Source: Cedecea neteri
GTDB taxonomy: Bacteria > Pseudomonadota > Gammaproteobacteria > Enterobacterales > Enterobacteriaceae
DNA: 64,000 nt
Reading direction: 5' to 3'
NCBI RefSeq assembly: GCF_000757825.1
Contig: NZ_CP009451.1
Coordinates: 4,588,001 to 4,652,000, forward strand
Made by a program: the position numbers and the translations under genes. Shown here piece by piece: positions 6,924 through 49,206 of this stretch; position 1 is the stretch's first letter, and the number at the start of each line of letters is the position of its first letter. The notes under the pieces are model-generated. The model made no database searches and was not told where the DNA came from. It saw nothing but the letters and a program-made list of their open reading frames with translations.

Positions 6924-7591
6924 TCAGCCGCGTTGGCGGCAAGATAATGTTTTAAGGTCATACGAAGATCCGGCGTTAGCTCCTTGATGTTGTTGAGCAT
7001 CCAGCGCAGATAACCCGGATCGTCTTCGGCGATTTCCGCGATAGGCTTACCGCGGTATTTACCAAACATCATAGTGGTCACCAGCGCCGGACGGCCGGTT
7101 ATCGTGACCATTTCTTCCGGCGTCCAGCCGGACACGTCCATAATTCTTAACAACAGGGCTGCGGTGATATAGCAGTCGAACAACGCTCGGTGATGATGCA
7201 GCCCGGCGGGCGTGTCCACGTGCAGCTTCAGCGACTTATACAGGCCCATGTTGCTGTATTTAATGCCCGGCCATAGGCGACGCGCCAGCTTCACGGTACA
7301 AATCCAGTCTCCCTGCATTTCAGGCAGCATGCGGCTATCAAAGCTGGCGTTGTGCGCAACATAATAACGGCTACCGTGATAGCGGGGGATCACGTCTTCA
7401 ATCCAGGGTTTATCGGCCACCATCTCTTCGGTAATTTTATGGATGGCCATCGCCTGATGGCTAATCGGGCGGTCTGGGCGAACAAGGTCGCTCATCGGGT
7501 TCACAATCTGGCCGTCGAGGATATCGACCGACGCCACTTCCACCACGCCACCCTGCAATCCACAGGTTTCCGTATCTATAATGCGCAGCAT
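6920..7591 (-). CDS. exoX: exodeoxyribonuclease X
   Basis: A 223-aa DEDDh 3'-5' exonuclease of the DnaQ superfamily, used in mismatch repair and repair of UV damage. Motifs are visible in order: ExoI (RIIDTETCG), ExoII ([11 protein letters not shown]) and ExoIII ([11 protein letters not shown]). The C-terminal part ([23 protein letters not shown]) is the conserved ExoX tail. The gene converges on ptrB with overlapping stops. yobB, between exoX and holE in E. coli, is absent; the 143-bp gap shows nothing recognisable. Confidence 0.96.
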
Positions 7592-9735: not shown

Positions 9736-9871
9736 AAACCACACAAATTTTTATCATAAAAAAACAGCAATAGCCTCAACGGGATATTGCTGTTTTTGCA
9801 TAAACAGTCACCTGAAACGCGGCTTTTTTCTGACCACTTTTGTTGCGGACTGGAAAACCTGCGTCGGTAAT

Positions 9872-9878
9872 CTATTCT
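9872..9878 (+). promoter_or_regulatory. SdsR -10 element (sigma-S type)
   Basis: CTATTCT lies 6 bp before the expected SdsR start, with no clear -35 hexamer. This resembles the sigma-S form (CTATACT) described for sdsR. Confidence 0.65.
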
Positions 9879-9884
9879 TAAGAG

Positions 9885-9987
9885 GCAAGGCGACTTAGCC
9901 TGCATTAATGCCAACTTTTAGCGCACGGCTCTCTCCCAAGAGCCATTTCCCTGGACCGAATACAGGAATCGTATTCGGTCTTTTTTT
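9885..9987 (+). ncRNA. sdsR: SdsR (RyeB) small regulatory RNA
   Basis: The sequence GCAAGGCGACTTAGCCTGCA and the rest, including ACGGCTCTCTCCCAAGAGCC and the final stem GACCGAATA...TATTCGGTC with a T run, follow the known enterobacterial SdsR almost base for base. SdsR is a sigma-S-dependent Hfq- and ProQ-binding RNA that represses mRNAs such as ompD, tolC and mutS. It is intact, but its terminator is the prophage attachment core, so the last bases and the downstream DNA are shared with the phage. The yebY neighbourhood is conserved. Confidence 0.93.
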
Positions 9988-9988
9988 A
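9961..9988. other. attL core
   Basis: TACAGGAATCGTATTCGGTC followed by seven T and an A is repeated at 49178-49206 with a single A/G change and one extra T. It lies in the SdsR terminator hairpin. The intact SdsR sequence on the left marks this side as host-derived. Confidence 0.9.
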
Positions 9989-10029
9989 TTTATAAGCCAT
10001 TACAAGCACTTACAGAGGCCGTTCCGAAA

Positions 10030-10049
10030 TTACTCGAAATTTACTCGAA
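10030..10049. repeat. likely integrase arm-type sites, left
   Basis: TTACTCGAA occurs at 10030-10038 and 10041-10049, 11 bp apart (one helical turn), between attL and int. A third copy lies by attR (49053-49061). The position and phasing fit Int arm sites; the role is inferred. Confidence 0.55.
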
Positions 10050-10120: not shown

Positions 10121-11194
10121 TTACAGCAAAACGTAACTTTTCTCGCGCGGGTCCAGGTACATTTTTGTCGTTTTTTCTGACGTGTGGCCCAGCAGCTTTT
10201 GAGCAAATTCTTCGCCATGCGATTTTTCATACAGTCGGCCAGCAAGGCTGCGTATCTCGTGAAAAGTCGGTGGATCCTCGTCGTCAATTCCGGCCAGTTT
10301 TCTTGCGGCCACAAATTTTTTAGTTAAGCCGTCCGGGTGTATATTTCCCTCCGGGCTGTTTTTCCTGATCCCTGCGCTGATGAGAAAGTCAGATCTGCTC
10401 ACCAGGCGGCAGCGGTCAATCACGGTACCGAGCCGCAGCTCAGCCGCCGGCAGAACGAGTGATAAAGGTAGGGCAATCATCATGCCTGTTTTCATCTGTG
10501 TTATGTGTAACCGGTCATCATAAATAGCGCTAAACCTCATCGCCGCAACATCCTCCCGGCGCTGCCCTGTGACCAGCGCAAGATCCATGGCCAGTGGGAA
10601 CCATGCCGGAAAATGCTCAGCAGCAGAGCTAACCGCCCTGAACGTATCTAGCTGCAGGCGCAACCGAGTTACTTCAATTTTCGGCGTCCTGGTTGGCTCA
10701 ACCGGGTTCTGCTTTATATGCCCTTCCACAATTGCCTCCCTGAACATGTCCGAAAGTACGGAACGCATTCCCGCCGCCATCGTGTTTTTACCCTCCGCTA
10801 TCCAAGGATCCAAAAATTCGGCAATATGCCGCGTCGATACATCGGCCAGGATCCTTCCCCCAATTCTTTCTTTAATGATTACCAACTGGTTTTTTCTCGT
10901 TTTGTATGTGTTGGCCGCCAGATCCCGGCGCTCAAGCAATGTGTAATACCGCTCACACCAGTCTTTAACTGTGAGCACGTCGGTACCTTTGATTTTTTCT
11001 ATCAGCGAGACGGGAGAGGACGTATTCGCAATATAATTGTTCGCTTCGATAGCCTGGGCTATCGCATCCCTGCGAGCTATTTGCCCCAGCGAAATCTCCT
11101 TTTTAGTGAGAGGATTCCGCCAGTAAAAAGACTTCCCTTTTTTACGATACGTCAGGTTTTTTGGAAGATTAGCATCGTAATTTTTTCGACTCAT
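10121..11194 (-). CDS. int: phage tyrosine integrase
   Basis: A 357-aa lambda-type integrase. An N-terminal arm-binding region (about 1-65) precedes the core-binding SAM-like domain (about 70-165) and the catalytic domain. The active residues sit where expected: R212 (TGQRRED), K235 (MKTG), H312 and R315 (HEIRS), H337 (LLGHTS) and Y346 (MYLD). It acts on the SdsR-terminator attachment core 130 bp away. The gene overlaps xis by 26 bp, as in lambda, so the two are translated from one leftward transcript. Confidence 0.96.
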   Translation of the reverse strand: MSRKNYDANLPKNLTYRKKGKSFYWRNPLTKKEISLGQIARRDAIAQAIEANNYIANTSSPVSLIEKIKGTDVLTVKDWCERYYTLLERRDLAANTYKTRKNQLVIIKERIGGRILADVSTRHIAEFLDPWIAEGKNTMAAGMRSVLSDMFREAIVEGHIKQNPVEPTRTPKIEVTRLRLQLDTFRAVSSAAEHFPAWFPLAMDLALVTGQRREDVAAMRFSAIYDDRLHITQMKTGMMIALPLSLVLPAAELRLGTVIDRCRLVSRSDFLISAGIRKNSPEGNIHPDGLTKKFVAARKLAGIDDEDPPTFHEIRSLAGRLYEKSHGEEFAQKLLGHTSEKTTKMYLDPREKSYVLL

Positions 11195-46157: not shown

Positions 46158-46834
46158 GCAAGTACACCGAGCTAATCACGAACTACCACGCGACTAAACC
46201 GCTTTTCCTGACTCACGTCGATCTCAGTACCCGCCCGCTGATAGATGTTTCAAACACGCTGGGTGGCCTGATTACAGCTTTTGATATTGATCATGCCGTC
46301 GGCGTGCAGCTCGATACCCTGGGGCTGTGGATCGGGCGTAGTAGCATTGTTAGCCAGCCCATTTCTGGCGTCTATTTTTCGTGGGATACCGACGGGCTGG
46401 GTTATGACCAGGGCGTGTGGCAAGGGCCTTACGATCCGGACTCCGGTTACACCACGCTAAGCGATGACACCTACCGCATCATTCTCAAAGCAAAAATCGC
46501 TATCAACAACTGGAACGGGCAGAACGACACGCTGCCCGCCATCCTCGATGCTGCGACGGCAGGATCCGGACTCAAAATGCAGATCGTCGATAACCAGGAC
46601 ATGACCATTTCGGTTTGGGTATTTCCCGAGACGGATATAGCGAATGTTTCACGCGAACTTATTGCGGCGATAAAGCAGGGCTATCTGACCGTGAAAGCGG
46701 CTGGTGTGTGGGCCGGTGATATTCAAACGCCATCGGTGGAAACCCCATCTGAGGGCAATAAATTTTTTGGTTTCGACTTAAACAACGAATACATCGCCGG
46801 TTTTGACGACGGTGCATGGGAGATGAAACTTTAA
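46154..46834 (+). CDS. baseplate/tail protein (DUF2612)
   Basis: A 226-aa protein of the DUF2612 family (SNTLGGLITAFDIDHAVGVQ; LDTLGLWIGRSS; YRIILKAKIAINNWNGQNDT), the counterpart of tail protein I that connects J to the fibre. The fibre ATG overlaps its stop (TAATG). Confidence 0.8.
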   Translation: MSKYTELITNYHATKPLFLTHVDLSTRPLIDVSNTLGGLITAFDIDHAVGVQLDTLGLWIGRSSIVSQPISGVYFSWDTDGLGYDQGVWQGPYDPDSGYTTLSDDTYRIILKAKIAINNWNGQNDTLPAILDAATAGSGLKMQIVDNQDMTISVWVFPETDIANVSRELIAAIKQGYLTVKAAGVWAGDIQTPSVETPSEGNKFFGFDLNNEYIAGFDDGAWEMKL

Positions 46835-47637
46835 TGGCTACGAACGAATTTAAACCCTTTGCCACAGGCGCTGGCGCAAATGTCATGAGCCAGGCTGATT
46901 GGGAAGCTTTACCGGCATTGCTGACTGGTTTTCAGTCCGGTAAGGCATCCAGTGCGCAGGTAAACAAGGCTATCCGCCAGGCTTCATTTGTGGCGGCGGC
47001 GCTGGCGCAGTTTATTGCTAACCAGTCCGGGAATGATGTACACGACGACGGCAACTTGACAACGCTGGTGGCCAGCCTCCTTTCTGCCATCAACAAAACA
47101 TCACAGCCGCTGGACGCAACACTAACCGCGCTTGCCGCCCTGACAACTGGCGCAAACAAGCTGCCTTACTTCACCGGGACGGATGCCGCCAGCCAGACAG
47201 ATTTAACCCAGGTTGGTCGGGATATTATAGGCAAATCTGCTATCGCTGACGTTCTCACATACCTTGGTTTGGGAACAGCGGCAAAAAAGGATGTAGGGAC
47301 CGGCACAGGGCAGATCCCTGACATGTCGACATTTTCTCTTGCGAGGATTTCTGCATCGTCGGGATATCAGAAATTGCCGAGCGGCTTGATATTCCAATGG
47401 ACAATAGGCCCGTCGACAACAGTAGAGACGTTAACAACCATCACGTTACCAATTCCTTTCCCCACCGCGATGATGGCTGGCATGGTGTCTACTAATGCAA
47501 ATTCCGGCAACACATCGGACATTATGTATCAGACAGTGGCGTCCACAGCATCTTCTATTACATTGCAATCGCAGATATTCACGACATCGGCGGGCGCTGG
47601 TTCCGTGTCACCCGTTGTGCTTGCCATAGGATATTAA
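46834..47637 (+). CDS. tail fibre protein, expressed version
   Basis: A 267-aa fibre. The constant N-terminal half (about 1-145, NEFKPFATGAGANVMSQADW; TLTALAALTTGANKLPYFTG) is followed by the junction GLGTAAKKDVGTGTGQIPDM at about 145-165 and a variable beta-rich tip. The junction is encoded by an inverted repeat (47264 onward) whose partner is at 48820. Inversion would exchange the last 100 or so residues. The matching chaperone gene follows 1 bp later. Confidence 0.85.
   Translation: MATNEFKPFATGAGANVMSQADWEALPALLTGFQSGKASSAQVNKAIRQASFVAAALAQFIANQSGNDVHDDGNLTTLVASLLSAINKTSQPLDATLTALAALTTGANKLPYFTGTDAASQTDLTQVGRDIIGKSAIADVLTYLGLGTAAKKDVGTGTGQIPDMSTFSLARISASSGYQKLPSGLIFQWTIGPSTTVETLTTITLPIPFPTAMMAGMVSTNANSGNTSDIMYQTVASTASSITLQSQIFTTSAGAGSVSPVVLAIGY
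47252..47277 (+). repeat. invertase crossover-like site 1 (fibre gene)
   Basis: TTCTCACATACC-TT-GGTTTGGGAACA: two 12-bp half-sites around a 2-bp core, the layout of Gin/Hin/Pin sites. The right half and the bases beyond it (to about 47327) recur inverted at 48820-48757. Confidence 0.7.
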
Positions 47638-47638
47638 T

Positions 47639-48055
47639 ATGTACGCATACGCTAAAAATAATTTCTATCCATTTGATCTTCGCGAGAGCTATGAGGCTGC
47701 AGGAACATGGCCGGAAAGCTTTGTTGAAGTCGAAGATGAAGTGTTTGGGATGTATTCAGGTTTGCCACCGGAAGGAAAAATGCGGGGCGCTGATGCGGAA
47801 GGGAAACCTGTATGGGTTGATATACCGGCTCCCACAGCGGAGGAAATAATCGCGGCTGCAGAACGCAAGAAAAAAGCTCTGCTTTCCGAAGCCGATTCGA
47901 TTACAGCAGACTGGCGCACGGAACTGGCGCTAAACATCATCGACGATAGTGATAAAGCGAAGCTAACAGCATGGATGGTGTACATCAAAGCGGTGAAAGC
48001 GGTAGACACGTCCACCGCACCTGATGTCAGTTGGCCGGAGAAACCGGCAGTGTAG
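47639..48055 (+). CDS. tail fibre assembly protein (Tfa), expressed version
   Basis: A 138-aa protein of the Tfa/caudo-TAP family (YAYAKNNFYPFDLRESYEAA; LPPEGKMRGADAEGKPVWVD; AVDTSTAPDVSWPEKP). It is a chaperone that folds or caps the fibre tip. It converges with the silent Tfa gene, overlapping it by 29 bp. Confidence 0.85.
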   Translation: MYAYAKNNFYPFDLRESYEAAGTWPESFVEVEDEVFGMYSGLPPEGKMRGADAEGKPVWVDIPAPTAEEIIAAAERKKKALLSEADSITADWRTELALNIIDDSDKAKLTAWMVYIKAVKAVDTSTAPDVSWPEKPAV

Positions 48056-48470
48056 GCCATTGGATATCTGGTGCACTGGTAGTGTCAACGGCTTCCAGTG
48101 CATCCAGATAATCCAGCCACAGGTTATATTTTGCAAAATCGTCAGAACTCAGTCTCTTCATGGCTGCTTTTCCCGGCCACTGCCTGCTGTTCATATAGGC
48201 GTTAGCCTGGTCAATCAGCAATTGTTTTTGTGCATTGGCTATCGCAACCAGTTCTTCATGAGTCGCGGGCGGAATATCAGCCCATGCAGGATAACCATCA
48301 TCCCCTGCCACCCTCATTTTTCCGGGAGGCGGTGCCTGATACTCCTTAAACGTATCCTCATCCACCTCTACACCTTGCTCGGGCCACATATTCACGGCCT
48401 CGTAGTCGTCCTGCATTACAAGGGGATAAAACGCATTGGTTTTGGCGTCATACAGATATTTATTCATCAT
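48027..48470 (-). CDS. tail fibre assembly protein, silent inverted version
   Basis: A 147-aa Tfa-family protein (YLYDAKTNAFYPLVMQDDYE; APPPGKMRVAGDDGYPAWAD; AVDTTSAPDIQWPTLPVSP), different from the + strand copy over most of its length. It lies in reverse behind the silent fibre end (no gap between them) and would be expressed after inversion. Confidence 0.8.
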   Translation of the reverse strand: MMNKYLYDAKTNAFYPLVMQDDYEAVNMWPEQGVEVDEDTFKEYQAPPPGKMRVAGDDGYPAWADIPPATHEELVAIANAQKQLLIDQANAYMNSRQWPGKAAMKRLSSDDFAKYNLWLDYLDALEAVDTTSAPDIQWPTLPVSPAN

Positions 48471-48839
48471 TTATTCTCCTACCGCAATCCAGTTAGCACC
48501 TGCACCAGTACCACCACCTGTGCGTGAACTCATCAGATAAAAACCGCCAAGACCGATAGGTGTTGTCGCAAATGGCGGGCAATCAGTCACTCCATTCTTC
48601 GCTGAGTCAAAAGACGTAGTGACAGTGAAACTGGAAGTGAATGAAATGGGTAAACTGATAGCGGTTGGGAATCCCAGCGGGCCTGATATAGACGTGCCGC
48701 GCTGAATGATCGTGCCGTTGGGAAATCTCGCCCACCCCGGGCCAGATGTGAAATTTGACATTGTAGGAATCTGCCCTGGACCTGTGCCTACATCTTTTTT
48801 TGCCGCTGTTCCCAAACCAACGTTTAAGAATATGCACAT
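48471..48839 (-). pseudogene. silent tail fibre C-terminal cassette
   Basis: It encodes GLGTAAKKDVGTGPGQIPTM, then a variable tip (NFTSGPGWARFPNGTIIQRG ... GGFYLMSSRTGGGTGAGANW) with no fibre N-terminus or plausible start. The shared GLGTAAKKDVG segment lines up with the expressed fibre at the inverted repeat. Inversion of 47264-48820 would fuse it in frame to the constant half. Confidence 0.8.
48807..48832 (-). repeat. invertase crossover-like site 2
   Basis: On the minus strand TATTCTTAAACG-TT-GGTTTGGGAACA. Its second half and core equal those of site 1, in inverted orientation. It lies just upstream of the invertase remnant, as gixR lies beside gin in Mu. Confidence 0.7.
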
Positions 48840-48871
48840 TCAGATACCAGATGGCATGTTCTCAGCCTTTT

Positions 48872-49009
48872 ATGAGGGAAAAGTTCGTGCTCGTGGTCTA
48901 TTACAGGGTGACAACAAATGAGCAAAACACTAAGCCGCAGAAAAACCACTCTGAACGCTCAGAATATGAACTGTTTTTTAATCCAGAAAAATTGGAAAAA
49001 ATAAGTTAG
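48872..49009 (+). pseudogene. remnant of a Gin/Pin-type DNA invertase
   Basis: Of 45 codons, residues 5-37 (LVVYYRVTTNEQNTKPQKN, then YELFF and EKLEKIS) align with the start of Gin/Pin/Hin serine invertases (LIGYVRVSTNDQNTDLQRN...). The catalytic serine position reads Thr (RVTTNE in place of RVSTND). The rest of the catalytic domain and the HTH are absent before attR. It is therefore a dead fragment. Confidence 0.75.
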
Positions 49010-49052
49010 GACAGGAATAAAACGCTTGGGATAGCTCGAACTTTTTACGAAT

Positions 49053-49061
49053 TTACTCGAA
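49053..49061. repeat. likely integrase arm-type site, right
   Basis: TTACTCGAA, identical to the two copies beside attL, 117 bp inside attR. Confidence 0.5.
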
Positions 49062-49177
49062 AAAAGTGATATGTATTTGATTGTTTTGGTGTGTTTAGGG
49101 TTGTGTTTTTGACTGAAAATAAATCGAAGTTTATTTTAGTATGTTGATTTGAAAGGTTTTTGTTGATTACTTGCGAT

Positions 49178-49206
49178 TACAGGAATCGTGTTCGGTCTTT
49201 TTTTTA
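49178..49206. other. attR core
   Basis: TACAGGAATCGTGTTCGGTC followed by eight T and an A. It matches attL except for one base (G for A at 49190) and one T. Sequence to the right is host DNA. Confidence 0.9.

Follow-up and report, generated by a model that had tools for sequence, protein, structure and literature searches.

Hin-type DNA invertases depend on an enhancer, a 65-bp segment that carries two Fis sites and lies about 100 bp from one of the crossover sites, and wild-type Hin is inactive without it, according to the sections of PMC3798978 that deal with this element. In the annotation of phage P1 (NC_005856) the cis-acting enhancer lies inside the invertase gene itself, at nt 19-90 of cin, and in P7 it is placed at nt 19-86. 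P1 cin, Mu gin and Salmonella hin each encode a full-length invertase of their own, but service in trans, by the enzyme of another element, is already known. The precedent is prophage Phi4 of E. coli EC958, where the invertase (EC958_1582) is severely truncated and PacBio reads were nonetheless assembled into the alternative orientation; the relevant passages of PMC4134206 propose action in trans, possibly by the enzyme of prophage Phi1, the sites being near-identical. In E. coli K-12 the P segment of e14 is inverted by PinQ and PinR of other prophages, and the same portion of that account (PMC12529663) reports that a pinE deletion locks the segment although PinQ is intact, so trans service is not automatic.

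The locus considered here lies in a stretch of 64,000 nucleotides of the Cedecea neteri chromosome (NZ_CP009451.1, positions 4,588,001 to 4,652,000), hereafter the window, to whose first letter positions refer unless stated otherwise. A prophage extends from attL (9957-9987) to attR (49174-49204, plus strand), the attR core pairing with attL at the 3' end of the SdsR/RyeB sRNA as recognised by Rfam, and its integrase gene (10121-11194, minus strand) encodes a tyrosine recombinase (PF00589, E 2e-17). The sRNA, recognised in the stretch 9847-9991, lies opposite SraC/RyeA, and the prophage is integrated at its 3' end; this locus is an insertion hot spot in Salmonella. A AATTTACTCGAA repeat, which resembles an integrase arm site, is present on both attachment sides (49050-49061 and 10038-10049). 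Just outside the prophage, at 776-2196, lies a transposase pair consisting of a helix-turn-helix protein and an rve integrase-core protein.

As in switches of the Mu/P1/e14 type, the prophage carries two alternative fibre C-termini with their Tfa (tail fibre assembly) genes in opposite orientation. The expressed cassette comprises a tail fibre gene with a Gp53-like C-terminus (46816-47637, plus strand; recognised as an ORF and by Pfam and PHROG) and a Tfa gene (47639-48055, plus strand; PF02413, E 5e-35). On the minus strand, the silent cassette holds a fibre C-terminal part (48471-48839; PF21882, E 1.3e-6) and a second Tfa gene (48027-48470; PF02413, E 1.2e-31); these frames, of 122 and 147 aa and 813 nt together, are both open and both match their families. 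Two inverted crossover sites with an identical TT core accompany the cassettes, namely site 1 inside the fibre gene (TTCTCACATACC TT GGTTTGGGAACA, 47252-47277, plus strand, 37.1 bits) and site 2 beside the invertase remnant described below (TATTCTTAAACG TT GGTTTGGGAACA, 48807-48832, minus strand, 29.8 bits). The scores derive from a weight matrix built on 29 distinct sites from loci with intact invertases, with a threshold of 11, against a maximum of 10.1 bits in shuffles of three loci. Both prophage sites score within the range of sites that stand beside intact invertases, and to judge by their sequence both look uneroded. We considered erosion of site 2, whose outer half reads AAACG against AAAGG in genus relatives, and rejected it, as AAACG also occurs beside intact invertases (L052, from E. 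coli TUM1880, and L164, a viral record).

Between site 2 and attR, at 48872-49009 on the plus strand, lies a short frame whose translation reads MREKFVLVVYYRVTTNEQNTKPQKN... and which the frame itself, PHROG profiles and DNA and protein homology identify as the 5' remnant of a Gin/Pin-type DNA invertase gene. Counted from the ATG at 48872 to the TAG at 49007-49009 it has 45 codons, and 40 if counted from the GTG at 48887, which corresponds to the start codon position in intact relatives; the in-frame ATG 15 nt upstream of that start is common to the remnant and the intact copy in its own genome. An ungapped alignment with intact invertases from this genus extends over about 34 codons of the frame. 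In profile searches PHROG 8275 ('DNA invertase') matches it with an E value of 3.7e-6 and PHROG 125 with 0.007, while Pfam returns no family for the frame, even at E 10, and NCBIfam none either. At the DNA level, 48811-48979 is 74% identical over 169 nt (E 8e-23) to the locus of the intact invertase in the same genome, and the remnant reaches 82% over 94 nt against genus relatives. A search of 5.8 billion proteins, able to detect those that are close to it in length and have exact words in common with it, returned no relatives of the remnant; the named phages gave no match to its region, nor did the viral_contigs set contain the exact patterns of the remnant or of crossover site 2.

Where seven intact relatives read YVRVS the remnant reads YYRVT, so that serine at protein position 9, which we take to be the catalytic serine of the YxRVS motif, is replaced by threonine. 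Homology can be followed to about nt 102 of the gene (48988). Over nt 103-150 only 12-13 of 48 nucleotides are identical to four relatives, which is chance level, and the rest of the gene was not detectable in the AT-rich DNA at 48989-49173, where the scores of four relatives on two strands were reached by 37 to 200 of 200 shuffles. The right-hand AATTTACTCGAA repeat begins within this interval, some 60 nt past the end of the invertase homology. The remnant retains the N-terminal resolvase-domain homology of the Gin/Hin/Pin invertases (small serine recombinases) for some 34 codons; the complete catalytic domain, helix E and helix-turn-helix of the family are absent, and what is left amounts to the first part of the catalytic domain, without the dimerisation helix and the DNA-binding domain. 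The prophage encodes no invertase in cis.

The pattern of substitution is that of a sequence released from coding constraint. Against five comparison sequences (the intact copy of the same genome, L022, L033, L096 and P1) the remnant differs at 33-41 of 102 nt, a divergence of about 0.33, and the differences fall on first, second and third codon positions as 11-16, 9-10 and 12-15, with 16-17 of 34 residues kept; for the intact copy of the same genome the figures are 11, 9 and 13, with 17 of 34 residues kept. Over their first 41 codons, six genus copies, own genome included, differ among themselves by 0-1, 0 and 1-6, and from L033 by 3-4, 1 and 13-18, almost all at third positions. Since the differences of the remnant are spread evenly over codon positions, it is, on the evidence of its sequence, dead as a protein. 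In this the preliminary description is borne out: it had read the short frame as the N-terminus of Gin/Pin, as the PHROG 8275 match and the DNA homology confirm, had taken the active-site serine to be threonine and the rest of the gene to be missing before attR, and had called the invertase dead.

Its further claim, that the fibre switch is locked unless an invertase of another element acts in trans, directs attention to the rest of the genome. The search proposed there for Gin, Pin or Hin genes finds a single intact invertase, at 3709157-3709699 of the same chromosome and 0.93 Mb away, which is the only match to PF00239 in the genome (E 1.8e-51) and the only full-length one; searched with this protein up to E 10, the whole genome yields two places, the intact gene and the remnant (E 0.003). 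The gene stands at the end of a block of about 15 kb (3694084-3709699). The first part of this block encodes a CI-like repressor, an antiterminator-like protein, a holin, an endolysin, an Rz-like protein and an alpha/beta-hydrolase; then follow sheath, structural proteins, tail assembly chaperone, tape measure, baseplate hub and wedges and a DUF2612 protein, and finally fibre, Tfa, an inverted ORF and the invertase. The inverted ORF, which takes the place of a silent fibre part, has no PHROG match. When 22 block proteins were scanned against PHROGs, the best match was in no case to a terminase, portal or major capsid family, and none is an integrase, save for the match of the invertase itself, a serine recombinase, to an integrase-class PHROG. 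Three block proteins do match PHROGs classed as 'head and packaging' (280, 349 and 587), which are named only structural protein, and the match to PHROG 587 is the DUF2612 gene, which adjoins a baseplate gene. ORFs were listed over 3693100-3719999 with length cut-offs of 100, 150 and 55 aa, so that small genes of the block may be missed. Regulatory, lysis and tail genes in the company of neither capsid, terminase nor integrase are what is expected of a tailocin, and we call the block, known here from its genes, tailocin-like.

The block is flanked on one side by an acpS-like gene and a ferredoxin-like ORF and on the other by a MurR/RpiR regulator and a tadA-like gene (names read from sequence). 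Six of eight genomes of the genus, the present one included, have this invertase at 98-100% identity, followed by the same MurR/RpiR gene; one of these genomes has two invertase copies near contig ends, probably an assembly overlap. The alpha/beta-hydrolase, which is lipase-like (G000:C1:3696876-3697754; PF00561, E 3.3e-21), lies between the lysis and the tail genes.

The crossover sites of the two loci correspond. Those of the tailocin-like locus read CTCTCGCAAACC TT GGTTTGGGGGAG and TTTTCTTAAAGG TT GGTTTGGGGGAG, and in all four sites the TT core is followed by GGTTTGGG, the core and one half-site being common to both elements. Prophage site 1 matches tailocin site 1 at 19 of 26 positions and prophage site 2 matches tailocin site 2 at 20 of 26, which compares with 20 of 26 within the prophage pair, 20 of 26 within the tailocin pair and 16 when the sites are compared crosswise. 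An intact invertase with matching sites is thus available elsewhere in the genome, as in the trans-served switch of EC958 Phi4.

What the remnant does retain is the part of the gene that in P1 contains the enhancer: nt 19-90 of cin correspond to 48905-48976 (plus strand; mapped from P1 and P7). In this segment we recognise two Fis-like sites on the plus strand, TGACAACAAATGAGC at 48909-48923 (centre 48916, about 96 bp from the core of crossover site 2) and GCTCAGAATATGAAC at 48957-48971 (centre 48964, 48 bp from the first). They were scored with a general Fis consensus, the tests being post hoc and the threshold of 20 being the remnant's own score. In 17 of 19 sequences, P1, P7 and Mu included, the best Fis-like pair with 48-bp spacing has its centres at nt 30 and 78 of the gene; the exceptions, L054 and L091, belong to another invertase lineage and lack a pair of this kind at that position, and in L137, from the same lineage as these two, the pair is weak (score 16). 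The pair in the remnant scores highest of the 19, with 20 of a possible 26, and its sites meet 6 and 7 of 7 key positions, likewise 6 and 7 in P1; site 1 is without the leading G, as it is in P1 and Mu. When both strands of the 64-kb window were scanned, the remnant was the only place to score 20; four others reached 19 but had fewer key positions, and at six more the key positions were present with scores of 12-16. When neutral change was simulated from five ancestors, with as many changes as observed, a score of at least 20 together with the key positions arose in 0.1-0.5% of runs, and the key positions alone were kept in 1-7%. Enrichment of conserved positions in the Fis cores is uneven across the five ancestors (Fisher p 0.153, 0.153, 0.009, 0.039 and 0.020, post hoc). 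This predicted pair, at the P1-equivalent position near site 2 and with the 48-bp spacing of P1, P7 and Mu, suggests that the remnant probably is an enhancer.

The locus resembles P1 cin, Mu gin and Salmonella hin in its pair of sites, and P1, P7 and Mu in a Fis-like pair 48 bp apart within the first 90 nt of the gene; its distance of about 96 bp from site core to first Fis-like centre compares with the roughly 100 bp between enhancer and hix site in the section of PMC3798978 on Hin; it differs in encoding no full-length invertase of its own. With EC958 Phi4, as far as the pertinent part of PMC4134206 describes it, it shares an invertible fibre segment, both 26-bp sites, an invertase cut short and an intact invertase in another element, but the donor proposed there is another prophage (Phi1), whereas here it is a tailocin-like locus. 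The 5' Fis-like pair is present in the Phi4 remnant too, which is annotated as 180 nt; the remnant of the window is shorter and heavily diverged in comparison, and evidence on orientation comes from reads in Phi4 but from one assembly here. The e14 case is alike in that the fibre segment of one element is flipped by the serine invertase of another and unlike in that e14 keeps its own pinE, PinQ being only 38% identical to PinE (PMC12529663, in the part on e14). In the open-licence literature we found no paper describing an invertase remnant kept as enhancer or a tailocin invertase that serves a prophage; the tailocin-like donor and the enhancer-keeping remnant are what is new.

A survey of 126 related loci, none of which was dropped, places the remnant among other broken invertases. 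It comprised 41 loci from genome_contigs and the best 80 of 331 from viral_contigs, all anchored on DUF2612, together with three hand-picked E. coli loci, the tailocin-like locus and the window; some of the viral records are redundant. By tblastn, 31 loci have an intact invertase, 13 a partial one (the window included) and 82 none, where 'none' is not equal to absence from the phage because many viral records stop a short way past the fibre gene. A site pair accompanies 27 of the 31 intact genes, eight of the 13 partial ones and one of the 82 loci without invertase. The partial copies divide cleanly: all eight that keep the 5' end, through truncations and frameshifts (the window, L054, L096, L137, L159, L162, L165 and L168), have the site pair, and none of the five without a normal 5' end (L059, L068, L070, L169 and L171) has it. 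As site 2 adjoins the 5' end of the gene, a deletion from that side removes both, and the pattern is only partly informative. We make no claim of significance for the retention of the enhancer in five of five N-terminal truncations (p about 0.40 with uniform breakpoints, by hand arithmetic), nor do we claim that genomes with a broken invertase usually hold an intact one, a check that covered two bacterial genomes (L059 and L070) and five viral records; in the genomes of L059 and L070, whose broken copies have no site pair, no other close invertase was found. Across the family, at least 197 of 392 genomes gave a match.

Several individual loci of the survey deserve mention in their own right. 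In L162 (4657-6286) and L159 (8935-10099) the invertase gene breaks off after about codon 35 and codon 89, respectively, and ORFs to which Pfam assigns no family come next, as if other genes had been inserted at the invertase 3' end. In Pseudescherichia vulneris (L070, 8307-8633) an open frame of 108 aa joins invertase codons 5-22 to 114-180, and no crossover site 2 was found at that locus. L101 has a crossover-like pair, at 7103 and 8856, and no invertase sequence detected at the locus, the sole such case of the 82. L054 (5597-6159, E. coli ECONIH5) carries an invertase of the second lineage, annotated as frameshifted, beside a complete two-cassette switch; it is 83% identical to that of L091 and about half identical to that of the tailocin-like locus.

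How should a dead invertase beside an apparently sound switch be understood? We consider it rather probable that the tailocin-like locus supplies, in trans, the invertase that still operates the fibre switch and that is predicted to use both prophage sites and the presumed Fis-enhancer DNA. Coding function has been lost, with the serine at the catalytic position and everything past about codon 34 gone; the DNA parts have been kept, namely both crossover sites, the open silent cassette and, in the remnant, the presumed enhancer. The tailocin-locus invertase would have to be expressed and to bind the prophage sites, Fis would bind the remnant, and the prophage fibre segment would then invert. 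The preliminary description had called the switch locked, through the truncation of its invertase, and had spoken of phase variation lost or outsourced. That the invertase died and left its sites unserved, with the erosion of sites, cassette and Fis-like motifs still to come, agrees with the missing cis gene, with the single orientation of the fibre segment (47264-48820) in the one assembly and with the locking of e14 by pinE deletion despite PinQ, as given in the e14 part of PMC12529663. Yet the remnant has changed at all codon positions alike while the 813 nt of the silent cassette have stayed open, the prophage sites score like those beside intact invertases, and an intact invertase with matching sites is present in the genome. 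Under neutral change without indels both silent frames would stay open with probability 0.23 at a divergence of 0.05 and 0.067 at 0.1, and with indels they did so in none of 1000 trials at 0.1; set beside the remnant's own divergence, this argues against an old lock, unless the cassette was imported later. Omega for the silent cassette is 0.15-0.28 where computable (the best six of the nearest homologues for each frame; dS could not be computed in three of 12 comparisons), but these comparisons are deep (dS 1.2-2.3, near saturation) and do not date a recent loss. With normal sites, an open silent cassette, enhancer-equivalent DNA and an intact invertase, the locked state is not supported and seems to us unlikely; outsourcing, to the tailocin-like locus, is the better half of the earlier alternative, and its escape clause of action in trans applies.

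A recent import of the silent cassette is a real, if doubtful, possibility, and one compatible with either reading, the open cassette having been swapped in beside a remnant that was already old and decayed; the contrast in decay would then say nothing about current inversion. It is suggested by the nearest prophage relative found, L096 (IMG/VR 2910669440_000005), which carries the same expressed cassette (dS 0.11 and 0.16) and, as far as the end of that cassette, matches the window prophage at 93.8% identity over 4,059 nt. Like the window prophage L096 has a truncated invertase, but the cut lies after codon 46, the serine is intact, the silent cassette is different, and its remnant differs from that of the window at 35 of 102 nt. 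The same expressed cassette beside different remnants indicates that the end from cassette to attR is probably mosaic and that decay of the remnant may predate its present place. Such an import leaves unexplained why both Fis-like sites stand at the right spacing in the remnant. We regard it as highly improbable that the remnant encodes a functional small peptide, for instance one that inhibits the intact invertase: the frame is still open and has a purine-rich leader, but a coding role fits poorly with changes that are even over codon positions, with a product confined to the first part of the catalytic domain, and with a protein search that returned no relatives. Returning to service in trans, a more specific version is put forward tentatively, as less probable than trans service itself though still a serious candidate: the remnant may be a protein gene turned into a pure cis-acting DNA element, its first 90 nt kept as a Fis recombinational enhancer, with the choice of fibre run by the invertase of the bacterium's tailocin, resident in six of the eight genomes compared from the genus.

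If the switch is indeed served in trans, a phage fibre switch would survive the loss of its invertase, since the DNA parts would lie within the gene's first 90 nt and the enzyme would be a resource shared between elements. The prediction would then be that a broken invertase retains its 5' end wherever the switch has been retained, in line with the eight of eight against none of five in our survey, a difference partly explained by adjacency to site 2. To annotate such prophages as locked, or to drop the fragment, would be to misread which fibres they are able to display, and the receptor choice of a temperate phage would be tied to the regulation of its host's tailocin.
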